Positions 7,049 through 33,600 of a stretch of 47,769 nucleotides of DNA are shown here, piece after piece. A program made the translations under genes and the position numbers. Every line of letters begins with the position of its first letter. Position 1 is the stretch's first letter. The notes under the pieces were generated by a model. The model ran no database searches, had not been told where the DNA came from, and saw only the letters and a list, made by a program, of their open reading frames with translations. The stretch is from a virus, in IMG/VR virus record IMGVR_UViG_3300025806_000043, positions 1 through 47,769 of that record; one strand, given 5' to 3'.

Positions 7049-7417
7049 ATGTACGCGGCCAACAAAGTAGAAGATAGCGAACTGCAAGCTAAACTTCCCG
7101 AACCCAAAGGCTTTAAAGTCTTAATTGCAGTCCCAGAATTAGACGGAAAGACAGAAGGCGGTGTTATTATGCCTGATGCTCTTAAATCTATGGAAGAGAC
7201 TGCATCTATAATTGGGTTTGTTATAAAAACCGGACCCGAGGCTTACACAGACAAAGAACGGTTCCCCAGTGGACCTTACTGTGAGGAGGGGGATTTTGTA
7301 ATCTTCCGTTCTTACTCAGGCACTAGATTTAAGGTGATGGGTAAAGAGTTTCGTATTATCAACGATGACACTGTAGAAGCAGTGGTAGAAGACCCACGGG
7401 GGTATAGTAGAGCATGA
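7049..7417 (+). CDS. GroES-like co-chaperonin
   Basis: 122 residues, slightly longer than the usual 95-105. It would cap the host GroEL ring during folding of capsid proteins. The family pattern is visible: a core strand with GFKVLIAVPE, then the mobile-loop region KTEGGVIMPD, where GGVIM corresponds to the GroEL-binding hydrophobic tripeptide. This is followed by GFVIKTGPEAY, then GDFVIFRSYSGTRFKVMGKEF, and a C-terminal strand. No GroEL partner is seen, so it would act with the host ring, as T4 gp31 does. It sits between portal and scaffold and overlaps the scaffold gene by ATGA, placing it in the capsid-assembly operon. The ribosome-binding site TAGGAG is good. Confidence 0.85.
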   Translation: MYAANKVEDSELQAKLPEPKGFKVLIAVPELDGKTEGGVIMPDALKSMEETASIIGFVIKTGPEAYTDKERFPSGPYCEEGDFVIFRSYSGTRFKVMGKEFRIINDDTVEAVVEDPRGYSRA

Positions 7418-11720: not shown

Positions 11721-11940
11721 AGGCGGTCTTGGCAAATGGTTCGGTGAAGAGTGGACCGATGTTAAGACGGGTAAAGCCTGCGGACGTAAATCCGCTAAAG
11801 GCAAGTCCAAACGTCCCTATCCTGCCTGTCGCCCTAAGAAAGTGGCGTCTAAGATAACTAAATCTGAGGCCACAAAGAAAACTGGGCCTAAACGTGTAAA
11901 ATGGTCTACTACTGCTAGTGGTAAGAAGAGGACTAAATAA
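11695..11940 (+). CDS. Very basic small protein (DUF5872-like)
   Basis: 81 residues from a GTG start that overlaps the previous gene by 26 bases. The core KGGLGKWFGEEWTDVKTGKA, then CGRKSAK and YPACRPKK, fits the domain I recall as DUF5872 (GLxKWFxExWVDxxxxxxCGR then YPxCxP). It has two conserved Cys. The stop overlaps the next ATG as TAATG. Structural or DNA-associated role is likely but unproven. Confidence 0.65.
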   Translation: MAKAPKKGKGGLGKWFGEEWTDVKTGKACGRKSAKGKSKRPYPACRPKKVASKITKSEATKKTGPKRVKWSTTASGKKRTK

Positions 11941-12626
11941 TGGCTACAGTCGTACCTGATCTACCTGAGTTGTTTGAAGAAGCCTTTGAACGGGCTGGCT
12001 TGCAGATGCAATCTGGGTATGACTTACGTACTATTCGTCGTAGTCTTAATATCTTAACTCTAGAGTGGCAGAACAGGGGTCTCAACCTGTTTACTATTGA
12101 CTCTGGTACTGTCGATCTGGTCGCAGGGCAGATAGATTATAGTATGCCCGTAGATACCATAGACATTATTGAGCATCAGCTACGTACTGGTACAGGTACA
12201 AATCAAATAGACACAGCTTTACAGCGCGTTAGCGTGTCTACATACGCACAGCAGACTAATAAAAACACTGTAGGACGGCCCACGCAGATATATGTGCAGC
12301 GGCTACCTACAGAAGTAAAGTTCACACTGTGGCCCACACCGGACACTACACAGGCTTACAAACTACTATACTTCCGTCTCAAGGGTATTGATGGACTTGC
12401 ATCAGGTGTGGGAGGAGAGACGAGCAACATACCCCCACGGTTTGTACCTGCACTCGTATCAGGGTTAGCGTTTCACGTAGCTATGAAGAAACCTGAAGCT
12501 GCGGCTAGGGCGGTGCCTCTTAGAGAAGAGTATGAGTATCAATTTAAGTTAGCGGCATATGAGGACCAAGAACGTGCGTCTTCTATATTTGTACCGTTCC
12601 AAACCTTTCACGGTGGTATGAGATGA
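11940..12626 (+). CDS. Neck/head-tail adaptor protein
   Basis: 228 residues, coupled to its neighbour (TAATG upstream, ATGA downstream). The opening LPELFEEAFERAGLQMQSGY, then RTIRRSLNILTLEWQNRGLN and LFTIDSGTVDLVAGQIDY, is the pattern of podoviral adaptor proteins that ring the portal base. The tail PLREEYEYQFKLAAYEDQER is a helix of the type seen in such proteins. It would assemble after packaging to link portal and tail. A second adaptor-like protein occurs at 14561-15208. Confidence 0.7.
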   Translation: MATVVPDLPELFEEAFERAGLQMQSGYDLRTIRRSLNILTLEWQNRGLNLFTIDSGTVDLVAGQIDYSMPVDTIDIIEHQLRTGTGTNQIDTALQRVSVSTYAQQTNKNTVGRPTQIYVQRLPTEVKFTLWPTPDTTQAYKLLYFRLKGIDGLASGVGGETSNIPPRFVPALVSGLAFHVAMKKPEAAARAVPLREEYEYQFKLAAYEDQERASSIFVPFQTFHGGMR

Positions 12627-13411
12627 GCTACGCGTCTGGTAAACACGCATACGGTATATGTGACCGGACAGGGTTTAGATACCCACTAGAAGACCTTGTA
12701 TACGAGTTTCAGGATGGACACCGTACTGGCTTTCGCGTTGGCAAAGATGTAGTTGATCCAGACCAACCTCAAAACTTCTTAGGGCGTATCCGCGTAGTTG
12801 ATCCACAATCACTGCTTGATCCAAGACCTGATGCTTCTCCCGGACGTGGTTTATTTGGTTGGAACCCCGTAGGACACACCCTTGTTCACTTAACAGGACA
12901 AGTAGGTAGTGTTACTTTAGACATTCCCGTACCAGAAAGTAATACTGTCACGGGCGTAGCAGCGTCTGGTTCTGTGGGTACTGTTAGTGTACTTGCGGGA
13001 GACGATATTGACGTTTCAGTTACAGGCATAACAGGTACAGGCGCTTCAGGCGCTACTACTATAACTACAAACATATTTGCGGTAACGGTAGCCAGCGGCA
13101 CTAATCCATACGGCACAGGCAATAAGTTCTACATAGATGGCGTTGTTAGTCCGACAATTAGTATTGCAGAAGGTTCTACCTTCCGGTTCGATCAGTCCGC
13201 CTCTAGTAATAGTAGTCACCCATTACGCTTTAGCACTACCGCCAATGGCACACATGGTGGTGGTTCTGAGTACACTACAGGCGTAACCACATCAGGAACG
13301 GCTGGACAAGCTGGTGCATATGTCCAGATAACTGTAGCTAACAGCGCACCAACCTTATACTATTACTGCGTAAACCACAGCGGTATGGGCGGTACGGCTA
13401 ACACACCATAG
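12623..13411 (+). CDS. Virion-region protein with C-terminal cupredoxin-like domain
   Basis: 262 residues. Residues 1-60 form the small phage domain beginning CDRTGFRYPLEDL and ending DPDQPQNF (a variant of the widespread CDxxGFK...HPQ domain). Residues about 107-150 hold two copies of the VTGVAxxGxxGxVxV repeat that also builds the 15943-17010 protein. Residues about 152-262 look like a cupredoxin beta-barrel: strand FAVTV, then KFYIDGVVSPTISIAEGSTF, His199 in SSHPLRF, and YYYCVNHSGMGG. His199, Cys249, His252 and Met255 match the type 1 copper ligands His, Cys-x2-His-x2-Met as in amicyanin. Copper binding is inferred. Similar domains occur in marine phage tail proteins. The gene is coupled by ATGA. 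Confidence 0.75.
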   Translation: MSYASGKHAYGICDRTGFRYPLEDLVYEFQDGHRTGFRVGKDVVDPDQPQNFLGRIRVVDPQSLLDPRPDASPGRGLFGWNPVGHTLVHLTGQVGSVTLDIPVPESNTVTGVAASGSVGTVSVLAGDDIDVSVTGITGTGASGATTITTNIFAVTVASGTNPYGTGNKFYIDGVVSPTISIAEGSTFRFDQSASSNSSHPLRFSTTANGTHGGGSEYTTGVTTSGTAGQAGAYVQITVANSAPTLYYYCVNHSGMGGTANTP

Positions 13412-13422
13412 GAGACTTGAAC

Positions 13423-13884
13423 ATGGCTATGAAGAAAAAAGGTGCCGCTAAGAGCGGTGTACGGAAAATGAAACCCGGAGGGCGCGTTGGCAGTAAGAAG
13501 CCTAACACTAGCGCGGCTAAGAAGAAACACACTCTGGATACGCATCAAGGTGGCAAGCGTATTCGTAGTGATAAGCAAGCTACGATGATACCTATGGACC
13601 TTTCAGGAAAAGCTAGTTCTAGTGGCTATGGCCGCTCACACAAAACCTTAGCAGAAATGTCAACTGGACCTACTCCTAACAAAAAACGGGTTGGTCGCGC
13701 TGGTGCCAGCTTAACCAAGAAGAAAGCTGGTGGTGCTGTCACTAAAAAGATGGGCGGCGGCAAGATGATGAAGAAGGGTTACGCCAAAGGCGGTAAGTTA
13801 GCGAAAATGAGTAAAGGCGGTAGGGGTACTATTGCTCGCGGTAGCGGTGCAGCGCGTCCTCAACGTTTTCGTAAAAACGGCTAA
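13423..13884 (+). CDS. Lys/Gly-rich basic protein with YAKGG motif
   Basis: 153 residues from ATG 13423 with GGAGA upstream; an in-frame TTG at 13417 is less likely. It is almost entirely low complexity: Lys, Gly, Ala, Ser and Arg, ending GAARPQRFRKNG. Motifs include VRKMKPGGRVGSKK and GYAKGGKLAKMSKGG; the latter contains the A-x-G-G motif shared with three other proteins. The extreme basicity suggests DNA or RNA binding inside the head or at the neck. The gene is coupled to the next by a one-base overlap (TAATG). Confidence 0.65.
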   Translation: MAMKKKGAAKSGVRKMKPGGRVGSKKPNTSAAKKKHTLDTHQGGKRIRSDKQATMIPMDLSGKASSSGYGRSHKTLAEMSTGPTPNKKRVGRAGASLTKKKAGGAVTKKMGGGKMMKKGYAKGGKLAKMSKGGRGTIARGSGAARPQRFRKNG

Positions 13885-14561
13885 TGCCTTATTTGCAAAG
13901 CAATATACCACACTTTAAGTGTTGGGTTCGTCGTGAGTATACGGTCAATCATGAGCGTTACCACGGCGAATTTCTACATGCTATGGTTATTGCTGTTACT
14001 ACGATGCCCAACAGATGCCTGAGTTTTCAGATTATCTTTACGGGGTGTGAAGCAGACGATACAGACGATGAGAACGTGCATGGCGGGGCTATGTGGGCTA
14101 GGATGCCCATAACTGCCTTGGTAGCTGATGAACCGTTTGAAGAGTGGCCCGAGGGTATGGCAGTTCACGAAGCCCAGCCTTGGGACTGTCCTTCTCATAC
14201 ACATGCGGTATACACGCTTGACAGAGCGTCACCTTGTCCGTGGATGGCAAAGATTGCAGGAGGGTTTTTTCCTGCTAAGTACCTGTTTACTGTGGATTAT
14301 ACCGACACAGATGTAGCAGATGATCCAGCGCAACACAAACAAGCGCATGTGCTACAGCTATTAGACGCGGGTAAGTGGACAGGTAATATAGTGGCGTTAC
14401 CTAACAACAGAGTACGGGTAACACACCCTGCGTGGTTTGAAACAGGCGAAGGCGCACCAGACTTTAAGCCATCACAACATATACATTATTCTAAATCTGA
14501 TTTAGACTACACATTAGACGTAACGCAAATATTCGATAACTTGTACAGCGAGGCCGAGTAA
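13884..14561 (+). CDS. Hypothetical neck-region protein
   Basis: 225 residues, coupled on both sides (TAATG). Rich in aromatic residues, His and Asp, with a well-ordered globular look: FKCWVRREYTVNHERYHGEF, then WARMPITALVADEPFEEWPE and QPWDCPSHTHAVYTLDR. Cys at three or more places, without a clear metal-site spacing. The family is not recognised. It lies between a basic protein and an adaptor, so it is probably a head-completion or tail protein. Confidence 0.65.
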   Translation: MPYLQSNIPHFKCWVRREYTVNHERYHGEFLHAMVIAVTTMPNRCLSFQIIFTGCEADDTDDENVHGGAMWARMPITALVADEPFEEWPEGMAVHEAQPWDCPSHTHAVYTLDRASPCPWMAKIAGGFFPAKYLFTVDYTDTDVADDPAQHKQAHVLQLLDAGKWTGNIVALPNNRVRVTHPAWFETGEGAPDFKPSQHIHYSKSDLDYTLDVTQIFDNLYSEAE

Positions 14562-15208
14562 TGAATTATACTGAGCTTACGCAAGCTATAAAAGATTATA
14601 CAGAGAACACAGAGGCAACGTTTGTTTCTTTGATCCCTACGTTTGTTCAGCAAGCGGAGCAACGTATATTTCGTACTGTTACTATACCTGAAGTTAGGTC
14701 CAACAGTACGGGTACTCTTTTTCAAGGGAACCAATACCTTGAACGTCCTGCTGATTTCTTAGCGGTATTCTCTCTAGCAATTATTGACCCTACTACAGCG
14801 GCGTACACGTACTTGTTAGAAAAAGACGTTAACTTTATGCGGGAAGCGTACCCCGTAACAGCTACAGAAGGTGTACCTAAATATTATGGTCAGTTTGATG
14901 GTGACGCTATAACAGCGGCTACAGACGGACACTTTATTATAGGTCCAACGCCTAATGCTACATATACCGTAGAGTTACATTACTACTTTGAGCCTAAGTC
15001 TATTGTTACTACAAGCACGTCTTGGCTTGGTGAGAACGCTGACACTGTACTTCTTTATGGTTCCTTGGTAGAGGCGTACACGTTTATGAAGGGCGATCCT
15101 GACGTTATGCAGTCATACAGAGAGCGATATGAGTCTGCGCTACAACAGTTGTCCGTTATTGATGCCGCCAGCAAAGGCGATAGTTATAGGGATGGGAACT
15201 TTAGATGA
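14561..15208 (+). CDS. Second neck/tail adaptor-like protein (P22 gp4-like)
   Basis: 215 residues. The start NYTELTQAIKDYTENTEATF, then LIPTFVQQAEQRIFRTVTIP, is a helical adaptor pattern seen in phage head-tail joining proteins. The next part holds YLERPADFLAVFSLAI and later VELHYYFEPKS, followed by a TVLLYGSLVEAYTFMKGDPD helix typical of the C-terminal half of this family. It overlaps the next gene as ATGA. With the 228-residue protein upstream it would make a two-layer neck; which layer each forms cannot be told from sequence. Confidence 0.7.
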   Translation: MNYTELTQAIKDYTENTEATFVSLIPTFVQQAEQRIFRTVTIPEVRSNSTGTLFQGNQYLERPADFLAVFSLAIIDPTTAAYTYLLEKDVNFMREAYPVTATEGVPKYYGQFDGDAITAATDGHFIIGPTPNATYTVELHYYFEPKSIVTTSTSWLGENADTVLLYGSLVEAYTFMKGDPDVMQSYRERYESALQQLSVIDAASKGDSYRDGNFR

Positions 15209-15492: not shown

Positions 15493-15927
15493 ATGGCATT
15501 CTCAGGAAACTTTATGTGTACCTCTTTTAAAGTAGAGCTTTTGAAGGGTGTCCACAATTTTACAGGGGCGTCTAACATATTTAAGCTGGCGATGTACAAC
15601 AACAGCGCAAGTTTCAATGCGGCTACCACTGCGTACACTTCTGGCAACGAGGTTAGTGGCACAGGCTACACTGCTAAAGGTAATGCTGTAACTACAGTTA
15701 CTCCTGTTGCGTCTGGCACAACGGCTCTTGTAGATATGAACAATGTTGTATTTACCAACGTGTCTATTTCTGGTGTTCGCGGAGCGTTGATTTTTAACGA
15801 GGTAGCTTCGGGTGATCCCACTGTATGTGTACTTGACTTCGGCTCTGACAAGGCTGCAAGTGCAGGTGACTTTACAGTAGTGATGCCAACCGCAGACGCG
15901 AGTAACGCTATTATCCGCATCGCCTAA
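15493..15927 (+). CDS. Beta-rich tail/virion structural protein
   Basis: 144 residues, immediately following the preceding stop codon. Strand-rich with repeated hydrophobic-Thr/Ser patterns: FKVELLKGVHNFTGASNIFK, then AMYNNSASFNAATTAYTSGN and VRGALIFNEVASGDPTVCVL. It looks like a single virion beta-sandwich, a class common next to fibre genes in marine phages. Role is probably tail decoration or fibre attachment. Confidence 0.65.
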   Translation: MAFSGNFMCTSFKVELLKGVHNFTGASNIFKLAMYNNSASFNAATTAYTSGNEVSGTGYTAKGNAVTTVTPVASGTTALVDMNNVVFTNVSISGVRGALIFNEVASGDPTVCVLDFGSDKAASAGDFTVVMPTADASNAIIRIA

Positions 15928-15942
15928 TTGAGGGTATAACCC

Positions 15943-17010
15943 ATGCCACTACCTTTTTCTGGCTGGGGCCGTGGCGGTTGGAGTTCTGGCTCTTGGAATA
16001 GCTTACAAGTAGGAGTATCTGTTACAGGCGTAGCGGGTACAGGGGCTGTTGGTAGCGTAAGCACTACCAGCGGTGTTACTCAACCTGTCACGGGTGTAGC
16101 GGGTACAGGGTCAGTAGGCTCTGTAACGGTTATTGGCGCTGCCAACATAGCAGCTACAGGTCTGGCAGGCACTGGGTCAGTAGGTTCTGTAACGGTTATT
16201 GGCGTTGCTAACATAGAAGCTACAGGGGTTAGCGGCACATCTGCACTTAATACTGTTGTAACTGAGTCTGATGGCAATCTTACGGTGCTTGGCCTTAACT
16301 CTATTGGGTCAGTAGGCGCAACCACTATAATATCAAACTCCGTAATCCCTGTTACTGGTCTTTCCTCTACAGGTTCTGTGGGTGCAGCCGCAACTAGAAT
16401 AGGTATCAACGCTAACATCACAAGTGGTGTGGCAGGAACTGGATCAGTAGGCTCTGTGACTGTAACGGGCCTAGCAAATCAAGCTGTTACAGGAGTTTCT
16501 GGAACTGGATCAATAGGCTCTGTAAGCGTAAACCAAGAGTTTTCTGTAACAGGGGTAGCGGGTACGGGCGCATCAGGAACCGTTAGCGTAAACCAAGGAT
16601 TTGGTGTAACGGGCTTATCGGCTACTGGGGCAATAGGCACTGTTAGCGTAAACCAAGCGTTTTCTGTAACAGGGGTAGCTGGAACAGGGGCGGTAGGCGC
16701 TACAACTATTAATTTCTCCTACTCAGCTACAGGTGTGTCTGGCACTAGCGGTGTTGGCGCTGTTACCATTGAAGGTAAAGCTAACCATACTGTTACTGGG
16801 GTAGCGGGAACAGGGTCTTCGGGTGCTTCGACTATTGATTTTGGGTACTATGTCACAGGAGTAGCAGGCACAGGCGCTGTAGGTACTGTCAGTGTAAATC
16901 AAGCCTTTGCCGTTACGGGTGTATCTGCTACAGGGGCAATAGGTGATACGTTTGTGTGGGAGAAGATTAGCCCCACAAATAACGCAAATTGGATACCCGT
17001 AGTCGCGTAA
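15943..17010 (+). CDS. Repeat-built fibrous protein (VTGVAGTG repeats)
   Basis: 355 residues. After a short aromatic/Gly head (PFSGWGRGGWSSGSWNS), nearly the whole protein is about 15 tandem units of about 19-23 residues. Each starts with a VTGVAGTGxxGxVxV block followed by a variable 5-10 residue segment (for example IGAANIA, VNQEFS). This is a regular beta-strand/turn solenoid pattern suited to a trimeric fibre or surface decoration. The last about 15 residues (WEKISPTNNANWIPVVA) break the repeat and may be a cap. Two units of the same repeat lie in the cupredoxin-bearing protein (12623-13411). The GWGRGGWSSG-type start resembles a repeat seen in other phage tail proteins. Confidence 0.75.
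   Translation: MPLPFSGWGRGGWSSGSWNSLQVGVSVTGVAGTGAVGSVSTTSGVTQPVTGVAGTGSVGSVTVIGAANIAATGLAGTGSVGSVTVIGVANIEATGVSGTSALNTVVTESDGNLTVLGLNSIGSVGATTIISNSVIPVTGLSSTGSVGAAATRIGINANITSGVAGTGSVGSVTVTGLANQAVTGVSGTGSIGSVSVNQEFSVTGVAGTGASGTVSVNQGFGVTGLSATGAIGTVSVNQAFSVTGVAGTGAVGATTINFSYSATGVSGTSGVGAVTIEGKANHTVTGVAGTGSSGASTIDFGYYVTGVAGTGAVGTVSVNQAFAVTGVSATGAIGDTFVWEKISPTNNANWIPVVA
16018..16950 (+). repeat. Tandem degenerate repeats encoding VTGVAGTGxxGxVxV units
   Basis: About 15 in-frame repeat units of about 57-66 bases (one longer, divergent unit at 16204-16360). The DNA is degenerate at third positions, so selection is on protein. Units near 16540-16690 are closest to each other at DNA level (GTTAGCGTAAACCAAG occurs repeatedly), consistent with recent unit duplication. 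Confidence 0.8.
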
Positions 17011-17080: not shown

Positions 17081-19495
17081 ATGGCTAGTACATATGAAAA
17101 TGATCTTCGGCTAGAAGAGATTGGCGATGGCGAACAATCTGGCTCTTGGGGCGCTACAACCAACACAAACCTAGAATTAATTGCAGAGGCTCTTAGTTTT
17201 GGCACTGAAGCCATTACCACCAACGCTGATTCACATACTACGGCGATTGCAGATGGAGCTACTGATCCGGGGCGCTCTCTGTACTTAAAGTATACAGGAA
17301 CGCTAGACAGTACCTGCACTATTACCATTACTCCCGAAGCCGTAAGCAAAGTGTGGTACATTGAAAATGGAACAAGCGGCTCTCAGAGTATTATTATTTC
17401 TTGCGGTTCTGGGGCCAACGTAACAATTCCAACGGGTCAAACCAAGGTTGTGTATTCAGATGGCTCTGGCGCTATGGGTGAGATTGGTACTTTAGGCGTC
17501 ACTAATCTGAATGTGTCTGGTGATATTACTGTAGGGGATGACCTTACTGTGACAGACGATATGACCGTTGGTGGAACTCTTGGCGTTACTGGGGTTCTAA
17601 CAGGTACGTCATTAGATATTAGCGGCGATGTAGACATTGATGGCACAACAAACCTTGATGCCGTGGATATTGATGGCGCTGTTCAAATTGATGCAACAGT
17701 AAATGTTGGAGTTGATGACACTGGTTATGACGTTAAGTTCTTTGGAGATACTGCCAGTGCATACATGCAGTGGGATGCAAGTGCCGATGATTTAATTCTT
17801 GGTGGCGCTGCGGGTATTGTTGTTCCAGACGGAAAGCTGACGTTAGGCTCAACTGCTGTTACATCTACGGGGGCGGAACTCAACATTCTTGATGGCGTTA
17901 CATCTACCGCTACTGAATTAAACCAACTGGATGCCATTACTCGCGGCAGCATCCTGTACGGCAATGCTTCTGGAGCAACGGCTAGATTAGCCAAAGGTGG
18001 CGCGAATACAGTTCTGACTTCGGATGGCACAGATATTAGCTGGGCTGAAGCTGGCGGTGGTGGCGGTGAGCAAACATTTACTGCTACAGGCGCAATAGCC
18101 AACGGAGACATAGTTGGACTCAATGGTGATGGAACTATTAGTATAATGACAACACTAGCAGGATCATTTGCCAATATTAGTGATGACGCTTTTATGTATT
18201 CAGCGTCAGTTGCATATGACTCTACAAACAATAAAATTGTTTTGTTATATCTAGATGATGGTAATAATGACTATCCTATGGTAGCCATCGGCACTGTATC
18301 TGGTACGTCAATCAGCTTTGGAACTCCAGTGCAAGTAGCAAGCACAGATGGCGATCGCGGCAAAACTTTATGTATTTTTGATTCTAACGCAGGAAAATTT
18401 GTTGCCATTTACACTACCTCTGGCAGCGTGAAATGCAAAGTGGGTACTGTCTCAGGAACGTCTTGCTCTTTTGGCTCTGAGGCCACGGTTCAAAGTGGAA
18501 ATGCAAGTGGTGAACCTGACAATTATGACGCTTGTTATGATTCTGGTTCAGATAAAATTATTTTCTTCGGCGTAGTCGATGGAACTAGCGGATACATAAA
18601 TGTTGGCAATATTTCTGGTACAAGCATTACTTGGGGATCAAGAGTTAACGTTGGCCCCAACCTAGTTAGAGCAGTGAGAGTTACTTACGACAGTTCTGCA
18701 AATAAAGTTATTTGTACATATGTGGACGGTGCTACTTCTAATTACTACTGTTATTATAGAGTCTGCACTGTGTCAGGAACTTCCATAAGCCTTGGAACTC
18801 AAGGAACAGTTGCTAAAGCATCCTCTAGTATATACAATTACAGCTACATGGATATTGAGTATTGTTCAGCTAGAAATAGACTATTTGTTGCAGGTGAATT
18901 TCAAGACAGCGGCAATCAAGATTACATATATGTTGGAAGTTTATCTGGAACAACGCTTACGTTTGGCACTCCAATTGAAAGCCCTATATCCTTTAGTGGT
19001 GGGGGTCGCATGACTCTGGTGGATTGTCCTGATATTAATGGGGTCGTGTTGCAGTGGAATTACTACTATAGTAATAATTTTCTTAATTTAACGTGCGCCG
19101 CTGGCACAAACAATCCTCAAGCCTTTTCTCCTAAAGAAATTACACCGGGGACTACCATTTATTATTATGGTTCAAGTTTGGCATATGACACCACTACAAA
19201 CAAAGTAATATTTGCAACCGTTAATGATACGGATAATGATAATCCAACAGCCGTTGTATATGATCCACTCGTCCCTGACAGGTGGGTCGGGCTTGCCGCT
19301 GAAGCAATATCAAACGGTGCAAGCGGAAAGGTTACAGTCATTGGGGGTATAAACACAGGGCAGTCAGGTCTAACAGCAGGAGTTGAATATAAAGTATCCA
19401 ACTCATCATCCACTTTAACCACTACATCTGGAACAGTCGTGGGAGTGGCACTTTCTTCATCCTCCGTCTATTTAACAAAGGCTGAAATATTATGA
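17081..19495 (+). CDS. Tail fibre with C-terminal seven-repeat propeller-like domain
   Basis: 804 residues. Residues 1-130 are an N-terminal phage-attachment domain (TYENDLRLEEIGDGEQSGSW). Residues 135-250 are short beta repeats (GDITVGDDLTVTDDMTVGGT). Residues about 262-290 hold GAELNILDGVTSTATELNQL, a trimeric fibre motif common in tail fibres. A Gly hinge follows (about 325). Residues about 365-730 carry seven repeats of about 50 residues, each with a YDSxxNKhhhh strand and most ending GTVSGTSISFGTP-like; this fits a seven-bladed beta-propeller and is the likely receptor-binding part. A 75-residue tail closes the protein. The propeller DNA looks more AT-rich than its flanks, a sign of module exchange. 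ATGA couples it to the chaperone gene. Confidence 0.8.
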   Translation: MASTYENDLRLEEIGDGEQSGSWGATTNTNLELIAEALSFGTEAITTNADSHTTAIADGATDPGRSLYLKYTGTLDSTCTITITPEAVSKVWYIENGTSGSQSIIISCGSGANVTIPTGQTKVVYSDGSGAMGEIGTLGVTNLNVSGDITVGDDLTVTDDMTVGGTLGVTGVLTGTSLDISGDVDIDGTTNLDAVDIDGAVQIDATVNVGVDDTGYDVKFFGDTASAYMQWDASADDLILGGAAGIVVPDGKLTLGSTAVTSTGAELNILDGVTSTATELNQLDAITRGSILYGNASGATARLAKGGANTVLTSDGTDISWAEAGGGGGEQTFTATGAIANGDIVGLNGDGTISIMTTLAGSFANISDDAFMYSASVAYDSTNNKIVLLYLDDGNNDYPMVAIGTVSGTSISFGTPVQVASTDGDRGKTLCIFDSNAGKFVAIYTTSGSVKCKVGTVSGTSCSFGSEATVQSGNASGEPDNYDACYDSGSDKIIFFGVVDGTSGYINVGNISGTSITWGSRVNVGPNLVRAVRVTYDSSANKVICTYVDGATSNYYCYYRVCTVSGTSISLGTQGTVAKASSSIYNYSYMDIEYCSARNRLFVAGEFQDSGNQDYIYVGSLSGTTLTFGTPIESPISFSGGGRMTLVDCPDINGVVLQWNYYYSNNFLNLTCAAGTNNPQAFSPKEITPGTTIYYYGSSLAYDTTTNKVIFATVNDTDNDNPTAVVYDPLVPDRWVGLAAEAISNGASGKVTVIGGINTGQSGLTAGVEYKVSNSSSTLTTTSGTVVGVALSSSSVYLTKAEIL

Positions 19496-30600: not shown

Positions 30601-33600
30601 ATGGGCATGATGCAAGTCAGGGGCGACTACAGCGGTAAAACATATGATGTGCAGTTTGCTGGAGACGAGCCAACGCCTGAAGAGATTGCTAATGCTACAG
30701 GTCAAATTCAAGCCTTAGAACGTGCTTTTGAAACTAAATTTGAAAGTGTTTACGGAGATCAGGCAGTAGATGATGGTACTGCATTTGGTCGTGGGTTTGA
30801 ATCTGGCTTAACACAAGCGCGCAGTGCATTAGGTACTACTGTTAGAGATTTTGGTGATGTAGTAGGGTCTGACTTTATTAGTGATCTTGGCGCTGGTCAA
30901 GAAGCAGCAGCACGTAGAACGCAGCTCTCTCGTGCAGGTACAACTACACCGTTTAGAACTTTTGATGAAGCCCGAGAAGGAGGCATTGCAGATACACTAT
31001 CTTATTTGGGTGAGATTGCTGGACAATCTGGACCTCAAATGGGCGCAGGTTTAGCTGCTACTGGAATAGGTACTTTAGCAGGTGGTCCTCTTGTAGGAAC
31101 TGCTGCAGGTATTGGAGTTATGACCCCGTTTTTCTATGGCAGCGGTTTACAACGTGCTGAAGAACAAGTTGCAAAAGGTGAATTAGACGCTGTTAACAGA
31201 ACTAATACCTTAACAGCGGCTGTAGGATCGGCTACATTAAATACTATTGCAGATAGACTGTTACTTACCGGATTATTAAAACCCGGAAAAAATATATTTA
31301 CTAGAGCAGTGTCAGGCGGGGTACAGGGTACTGTATCAGAAGTGCCGACTGAAATTGGTCAACAAATATTAGAACGTTGGCAAGCAGGTATGCCTTTAGA
31401 TGATGCAGAGGCAATAGCAGAATATCGTGAAGTAGGTATTGCCGCAGGTCTGCTTGGCGGTACAATCGGCAGTGGGATAAACATAGTAAGGCCATCATTA
31501 GATAAAGGCACTGATACTAAATTAAAACCTCCTGTAGATGACGCATCTTCAGATGTAGGCAGTGATGTAGATTCAGTCAAATTACCATCACCTAAAAAAC
31601 CTACGGGAATTGGAACTTACAGTGCAGCAGGGTTAAAGGGCTTTGAAGCAACACAAACTCCACTTGGAGGATTAGCTGGACTAACTGGACGTTTGCCTCC
31701 CGCTGTAGAAAACGCTGCAGATCGAGTATCAGCTTCAGATGTAGATGGGGATAATGTAGACGCATTTATAGCGGGGCTTGGTGGTAGTCAAACATTACAA
31801 GACACTACCGCAGAAGCTGCGCCTATGACAGAACCTGAAAAAGCTAAAACTGTACCCACAGTAAAACCTAAATTAGATGACGCTGCTTTACTTGAAGATG
31901 CTAGAAGATCAGTAACTGAACGCAAGGTAGCTTCAGTTAGTGCATTACAACGTGATTTAAAAATTTCTGGGGCACGAGCAGCAAAATTAATTAGTCTTCT
32001 TGCTGCTGAAACAAACCCTATAGTTGGCCCTGCCGATAAAAAAGGCAGACGTAAATACATACCTATAACTGTAGAAAGTACACCTGATAGTGCGCCAATA
32101 GTTCCAGACACTATAACTCCTACAACAGAACTAGATGGTAGCACAGGCGTTAAACCTAAATCTGAAGCTGAAACTGTTACAAAACCTGAAGTTAAACCTG
32201 TTACAGAATCCGAAGTTAAACCTGTTACAGAATCCGAAGTTGAACCTGTTACAGAATCCGAACAGGGCGCACAACTGCCTGTTGGGACCAAAAATTTAAG
32301 AGATGAAAGTGGAGAGTTTGTAGGTGACGCTACGGATCAAGCATTTCCCGATGCAGGTGCAACGGGTAGTGAGTTCGTGCAAAGTTACGATAAGGCTCTT
32401 AACCCTGTAGCTGGACCAAAAATATCAGACACAAGTGGGTTAAACTACACAGCAGAAAAAGCCCCCGTTAAAGTTAGGACAGAAGTACTAGAGGCCATAA
32501 GTGAACTGCCACCAGCACAGCAAAAGGCCATGCTGACCCGCGAAATAGAAGCAGCGGAAGCAGAATCGCTACAAGGCAACCTATTACTCAACAAGATAGG
32601 TGAACTGTTCCTCAAAGGAGGGGCAACAAAAGACACTAAACAAGGTAAAGCGGCTAGAAGTATCCTACTACAGCAAGGCGCAATATCGGACGTAAACCAG
32701 CAACCTGATATAACCGATTTAGAAGACAAAAAACGCATATTGAACTTGTTAGAGATGACAGATGACGCGGCTAAGAAGATGAAAGACCCGAATGCCTTTG
32801 CTGCGCGAGCATTCTTTAAAAACTTTCTACGTCCTGTAGACGCGATAGAAGAAGCGGCAGTCGTGTCGGTGCTGTATGCTCCTGCGTCCTCACCTAAAAA
32901 CCCTAAGATACAGAAACGAACCTCAAAGGTTACAAAGTTTCCCGAAGGCACATCCGCTATGGCGTCCGCACTAAACCCCGAAGATGGCTTTGTGTACGGA
33001 GATACCATATTTGAAGAAGCCGCAGAAGTATCAGACGCCGCGTATGAATTTTACAGTAACGAGACGCAAGAAAAAGCACTGCAGGCGTTACAGTGGATGG
33101 AAAGCAATATGTCGGATGACGTGAACAACTTTGCGTCTGATGTAATAGCCGAACAACTAGATATGGCGGTCCACACCCTCACCCCTGCGGAACGAGATGC
33201 TCAGATACAGTTACGTAGGGAGAGAAAGAGTGAACTCCAAAAAGGTCGCAGGGACGAGGATAAACGTCTAAGAGAAATGTCGGCGGCAGAAGAAGCGCAG
33301 CAACGTTTTGAAAACTCACCAGAGGGACAGGACGCTGCTGTATTAGCCGAAGCTAGAGCGGTAGCATATGCACGGCAACGCGCAGAACGTATTGAACGTA
33401 TGCGTAGCGAAGGCGGTTACGACAGAGCGCAGGAAGCAGATAAAAAAGCGCGTATGAAAGCGTTGGCTGCTGACTATACAAACTACATAAGAAAGAAGAA
33501 CAAAGCCGCAGCCGCTGCATCACAAGGACAGCCTAACCAACTCGATCAGGATCAAGCAAACTTAGCCGAAATCAAGTTAAATTCGACAGAAGAAGCGTAC

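Follow-up and report, generated by a model that had tools for sequence, protein, structure and literature searches.

Positions 15,943 to 17,010 of the IMG/VR virus record IMGVR_UViG_3300025806_000043 hold a gene that is built mainly of one short repeated block, and the same block occurs in a second protein of this virus, which ends in a cupredoxin domain. The locus raises the question of what such a row of repeats does for the virus and why two genes carry its unit. Here we analyse the whole stretch of 47,769 nucleotides (positions 1 to 47,769 of the record, hereafter the window) together with related loci from viral contigs, designated by L numbers. The reading that we favour, to which we assign a probability of about 0.6, is that the 355-aa product of the gene is a component of a neck or tail appendage of the virion, with a row of units of variable number serving as spacer between tryptophan-rich caps.

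Organisation of the array gene

The gene and its parts are as follows.

15943..17010 (+): 355-aa unit-array protein (VTG protein), the main subject; open reading frame with ATG start and 48 viral relatives
15943..16020 (+): N-terminal cap, residues 1-26; W8, W13 and W18 invariant in 29/29 aligned proteins
16021..16971 (+): 15 units of 20-23 aa each, unit 15 continuing into the C-terminal cap
16219..16350 (+): degenerate landmark units 4-5, among the best-conserved columns between relatives
16486..16665 (+): units 8-10, missing (with units 2-3) from 10-unit relatives; unit 8 sequence in place of unit 10 in L017
16951..17007 (+): C-terminal cap, FVWEKISPTNNANWIPVVA; W339 and W350 invariant in 29/29; several W repeats in other family members

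The units start at residues 27, 49, 71, 93, 115, 137, 160, 182, 202, 222, 242, 262, 284, 304 and 324, with lengths of 22-23 aa in units 1-7 and 12 and of 20 aa in units 8-11, 13 and 14. Repeat detection with a unit HMM returned 15 domains (i-E <= 3e-7 each), by which the roughly 15 VTGVAGTG units of the initial annotation became exactly 15, of 20-23 aa; because the profile was built from those very units, this result is a register check only. The consensus of 414 unit hits reads V-T-G-V-[SA]-G-T-G-[AS]-V-G-[SAT]-V-[TS]-V, followed by 5-8 variable residues, and across these hits conservation reaches 100% (rounded) at glycine 3 and 91% at glycine 11. The AlphaFold model of the VTG protein (alignment of the window and 28 of the 48 relatives) was unusable, with a mean pLDDT of 46 and a pTM of 0.35. 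The period of 20-23 aa would fit a beta-solenoid, of which the low-confidence model (pLDDT 46) is no guide, and "solenoid" and "fibre" are terms that we infer rather than observe.

The VTG protein had no match at E <= 1 in Pfam, PHROG, NCBIfam or the PDB sequences, and was not placed in any described tail-fibre family. For the array part of 10 other family members tested, no convincing family was found. The Pfam family 'CTD' (Spt5) matched the C-terminal SQTPxW repeats of L141 and L143 above its cut-off (E 7e-7 and 8e-7), which was taken as simple-repeat similarity, and homology was rejected. A tblastn search of phage genomes with the array protein gave no match, but was run with the low-complexity filter on and therefore carries little weight; array relatives in phage records were located by gene position. 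Megablast of window positions 1-25000 against phage genomes gave no match either. Unit strings such as VTGVAGTG were absent from the literature searched, and no article was found there that joins a cupredoxin with a phage tail fiber, or that describes the VTG family in its title or the start of its abstract; preprints and most subscription journals lay outside the scope of both searches.

A unit common to two proteins

The second protein with the unit lies upstream of the array gene.

12623..13411 (+): 262-aa protein with N-terminal domain (phrog_28581), two VTG units and cupredoxin domain
12947..13078 (+): the two VTG units, linker of the 262-aa protein, residues 109-152
13070..13408 (+): cupredoxin domain, residues 150-262; H199, C249, H252 and M255 invariant in 42/42

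The initial annotation had claimed that the unit is present twice in this protein and that the two genes have one modular unit in common, a claim staked on profile similarity between the units of both proteins. That similarity was found. A two-unit profile of the array matched the 262-aa protein with E 1.2e-7 and 25.1 bits (209 window frames), against a maximum of -4.3 bits in 1000 composition-keeping copies with a shuffled linker, and it located two full units at residues 109-132 and 133-152, preceded by a weak partial one. Among the 209 stop-to-stop window frames of >=60 aa, no third protein rose above noise (next E 0.45). A simple unit-counting pattern gives 3 units in the 262-aa protein, the partial one included, and 14 in the array, where profile and eye give two full units and 15, respectively. 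Mere low-complexity convergence of G/V/T-rich sequence would agree with the simple composition and with the weak score of a single-unit profile (E 0.013, 9.1 bits; best of 1000 shuffles 7.1), but it is made very improbable by the wide gap between the two-unit profile and its shuffles, by the remaining frames of the set of 209, which do not score, and by relatives of the second protein, which carry 0-3 whole units at the same place.

The proposal that the units of one gene were seeded from the other found no support, the longest DNA match between linker and array being 12 nt, a length equalled in 104 of 300 synonymous recodings. It had also been proposed that the repeats mediate contact between the two proteins, and their location in one structural cassette, together with the significant unit common to both, would suit a mutual binding in the tail by interlocking strands. 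Contact between the unit-bearing proteins is, however, unnecessary, because either occurs without units while the other has them, and we regard such binding as quite improbable. An array accompanies an N-domain protein without unit in L020, L029, L033, L039, L044 and L121; the N-domain gene is present in 63 of 81 pattern-scan clusters (among the matches listed) and is unit-free in 50 of these 63. The reverse case is Roseobacter phage CRP-901, whose gp53 (hypothetical) has the N-terminal domain of the 12623-13411 protein (phrog_28581, E 9.6e-17), about eight VTGVAGTG-like units and a terminal WG motif; unlike the 12623-13411 protein, it is without a cupredoxin, and the genome is without a separate array gene. 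The array can thus sit on either protein.

The cupredoxin label of the initial annotation proved right, given both the structure match and the conserved residues. Residues 150-262 were modelled confidently and superimposed on residues 24-131 of 2dv6, a nitrite reductase (Z 9.3, rmsd 2.5, 97 residues); the fold matches listed comprise nitrite reductase, rusticyanin, laccases and other copper oxidases. H199, C249, H252 and M255 are presumably the His, Cys, His and Met ligands of a type 1 copper site, and we take their C-x2-H-x2-M spacing to resemble that of amicyanin. On a likely virion protein, this domain suggests that copper may be carried on marine phage particles. Matches to the protein occur in 121 phage records; the best ones listed fall on the cupredoxin domain and come mostly from cyanophages.

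Domains change beside the linker. The first 126 sequences contain 104 frames that encode the N-terminal domain; in 75 of these the cupredoxin is also present, with 0-3 whole units in between. The loci L062, L064-L069 and L073, some of which look like one virus, are 45-50% identical to the window in the N-terminal domain and 90-96% in the cupredoxin. In L020, L030, L035, L094 and L125 the N-domain gene has a short tail instead, and a separate cupredoxin-like gene comes next, while in L039, L048, L114 and L117 the gene stops after the N-terminal domain. The separate gene (L094:3316-3966, likewise in the other four) encodes 217 aa, with a GSSANDGNGDTLRSGATKINANFTEIY-like start and its own C-terminal cupredoxin-like domain (HPLKIRV...YQCTNHSGMVG). 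From these comparisons the linker appears to be a domain-swapping seam, where the VTG units would link the N-terminal domain with an exchangeable cupredoxin domain. The linker is modelled with a pLDDT under 50, so that a flexible linker fits as well as a rigid spacer.

Unit number, copying and exchange

The scan of viral contigs yielded 48 relatives of the array protein, 10 of which were truncated at contig ends and set aside. In the window and the 38 complete relatives, 15 units are found in 17 proteins, 16 in 11, 10 in nine, 17 in one and 11 in one; since proteins of 386 aa come out as either 15 or 16, the HMM count has an error of about one. The comparison of unit number between relatives, named in the initial annotation as a check, thereby showed a range of 10-17 with changes by whole units: gaps in the alignment are whole units, the frame is kept, and the 10-unit form is without units 2-3 and 8-10. 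Such a change can be recent, because the 10-unit loci L051 and L038 (two loci on one contig) have flanks that are 89-99% identical to the window in DNA (capsid 99%, p95 99%, adaptor 95%, phrog_644 89%).

Within the window, the top tandem-repeat row of the DNA spans 16501-16698 (period 60, 71% matches), and the spot singled out in the initial annotation for especially similar DNA units (16540-16690) was well chosen. The current expansion that had been read from it did not hold for the window. Units 8-11 match their counterparts at the same positions in L003, L006 and L017 at 95-100% identity (unit 10 of L017, 83%), whereas among themselves the cores of units 8-11 are 62-74% identical, and by this comparison the window's own units appear to be old. 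The longest exact repeat in the array gene, of 21 nt with starts at 16539 and 16659, is only mildly unusual because 26 of 1000 synonymous recodings match its length.

Copying is seen in relatives. L011 has an exact repeat of 60 nt, reached in 0 of 1000 recodings, and its repeated blocks lie 60 nt, or one unit, apart. In L017, unit 8 was copied over unit 10, leaving an exact repeat of 49 nt (0/1000 recodings): 10 of the 28 differences between L017 and the window lie in unit 10, all 10 are equal to unit 8, and the outgroups keep the window base at these positions (L003 at 9/10, L006 at 10/10). Across the 11 genes of the recoding test, L028 (34 nt) and L038 (27 nt) also went beyond all 1000 recodings, less clear results were obtained for L010 (5/1000), L020 (2), L023 (11), L003 (30) and L006 (32), and L013 was unremarkable (209 of 1000 synonymous recodings). 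Homologous recombination within and between genes would gain, lose or overwrite whole units and swap end domains with the frame intact; the likeness of all units to one another would make such whole-unit shifts possible.

Genomes also seem to trade array alleles, as dS between the window and L017 is 0.06 in the array, against 0.51 in the adjoining phrog_644 gene and 0.19 in the gene of the 12623 protein. This exchange, and the replacement of unit 13 in L006 and L010 (52% identity, versus 97-98% for unit 14), would be expected if the array were a host-range determinant, in which unit loops and unit number set the receptor and unit recombination generates diversity. We consider this unlikely, since omega values of 0.20-0.26 indicate purifying selection on the array, and since it is the next protein, of 804 aa, whose body is exchanged wholesale between close relatives, as would rather be expected of a receptor-binding protein.

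Genomic context and comparison with known systems

The window encodes a terminase, portal, capsid, two SU10-type adaptors and an endolysin, with a replication block on the opposite strand. The VTG gene sits in a tail/neck cassette, behind the adaptor, p95 and phrog_644 genes, with the following neighbours.

11940..12626 (+): second SU10-adaptor-like protein; PF24175, 46 bits (cut-off 27 bits)
14561..15208 (+): SU10-type adaptor protein; PF24175, 88 bits (cut-off 27 bits)
15493..15927 (+): phrog_644 protein, next gene upstream of the array family
17081..19495 (+): 804-aa tail-fibre-like protein; N-terminus (phrog_31104) kept in relatives, remainder exchanged

In the 804-aa protein, the first 150 residues are kept (78-88% DNA identity in close relatives) and the rest is replaced. 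Other genes of the window were recorded alongside. Positions 13417-13884 encode a very basic K/G-rich protein, which ranges from 64 to 182 aa in relatives by way of GGxMKKKGMAKGGAVAKK-type repeats, and 13884-14561 a 225-aa protein of phrog_3704 (labelled ferredoxin, E 2.3e-29) that is missing here in some relatives, e.g. L114. A GroES-like co-chaperonin gene lies at 7049-7417 (phrog_3188, E 1.2e-12), and a 24-bp tandem repeat of 4.4 copies (90% matches) at 32158-32262, within an ORF of 2348 aa. Portal relatives listed, of 28-44% identity, infect SAR11, Roseobacter, Caulobacter and others.

A DNA pattern of two consecutive units matched at least 120 viral contig stretches, with 115 new loci among the matches listed, and 104 of these 115 had >=600 b before the array gene and entered the upstream survey. 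Among these listed loci, a phrog_644 homologue was present on the same strand in 94/104 and ended <=60 b from the array gene in 73/104 (54/81 clusters at 90%); in the remaining 31 it was more than 60 b away (20), overlapped by 88 b (1) or was not found (10). After 10 of 76 frames had been set aside as cut, a simple pattern found the C-terminal motif in 46 of the 66 complete array frames and the N-terminal motif in 41, with both in 26 and neither in 5; the plan common to many array proteins is a W-rich cap, units and C-terminal W repeats. The VTG array family is common in marine viral contigs and is usually found at one set position of the structural cassette. On the minus strand of L210 (1536-6866), an array of about 50 units lies in a protein of 1777 aa. 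In bacterial genomes, the two-unit pattern occurred on 4 contigs, all from MAGs (L248-L251, labelled Rhodobacteraceae, Oceanicoccus, Euryarchaeota and Porticoccaceae), which are possibly phage contigs binned along; the start of the L249 protein, MADVIVPIGGWGRSGWGEGPW, resembles viral array proteins.

An array protein that is no part of the virion, e.g. a secreted one or one on the surface of the infected cell, is hardly credible in view of this fixed place behind the adaptor, p95 and phrog_644 genes and of the use of the same unit as linker in a protein with PHROG tail-fibre matches. Our preferred reading remains the spacer of a neck or tail appendage, with which the purifying selection on the array and the SU10-type adaptors in the cassette agree. 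In such an appendage, the W-rich N-terminal cap would anchor the 355-aa protein to the particle, the row of 20-23-aa units would be the spacer, its length set by their number, and the short W-rich C-terminal cap would bind the component that follows, for which the tail fibre of the adjacent downstream gene is a candidate. Length-variable repeat arms of phage tails are of a known kind. A broader proposal, which we advance tentatively as possible, though doubtful, is that the 20-23-aa block is an interchangeable part common to marine phages, present on at least two virion proteins as a length-tunable arm and recombination seam, and that it shuffles arm length and tip domain (cupredoxin, tail-fibre dock) between lineages; the W-rich caps might then fasten the arm to the virion and, with their tryptophans, receive a trimeric fibre in the manner of the SU10 nozzle loop. 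A family name, together with the grammar of its units (cap, units, tail), would allow the hypothetical genes of HTVC027P, CRP-345 and DSL-LC04 to be annotated, and unit copying in relatives may offer direct access to the way in which attachment structures are readjusted in phages that infect abundant ocean bacteria.

Among the closest counterparts is the hypothetical protein WJZ48131.1 (376 aa) of the metagenome-assembled phage DSL-LC04, which has the same slot right behind a phrog_644 homologue and resembles the VTG protein in its WG motifs, VTGV units and C-terminal W repeats, but differs from it by additional WG modules within the array. The hypothetical proteins gp68 of Pelagibacter phage HTVC027P and gp55 of Roseobacter phage CRP-345 also occupy the slot behind the phrog_644 homologue and hold related repeats (TANLGSVT-like and SVSATGSIGTVSP), a kinship judged by position and by eye; unlike those of the VTG protein, their units are too diverged for the strict pattern, and the WG motifs of gp68 are scattered at several places. 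HTVC023P has no array-like gene behind its phrog_644 homologue. Tandem repeats in a phage protein are also known from the BACON domain, an Ig-like domain far bigger than the 20-23-aa VTG unit.

In SU10, gp11 forms the adaptor and gp12 and gp13 the long tail fibre, and the trimeric short fibre is held by a dock loop that contains three tryptophans (PMC9509320). The window resembles SU10 in that its cassette holds SU10-type adaptors, and SU10 itself has fibre proteins whose numbers adjoin that of its adaptor (PMC9509320). The array protein is likened to the SU10 fibres by gene context, and no sequence relation between the two emerged in the searches described above. As tandem repeats in a phage protein, the VTG units are comparable to the BACON-domain repeats of crAss-like phages, which have been described as a hotspot of evolution (PMC6949934).
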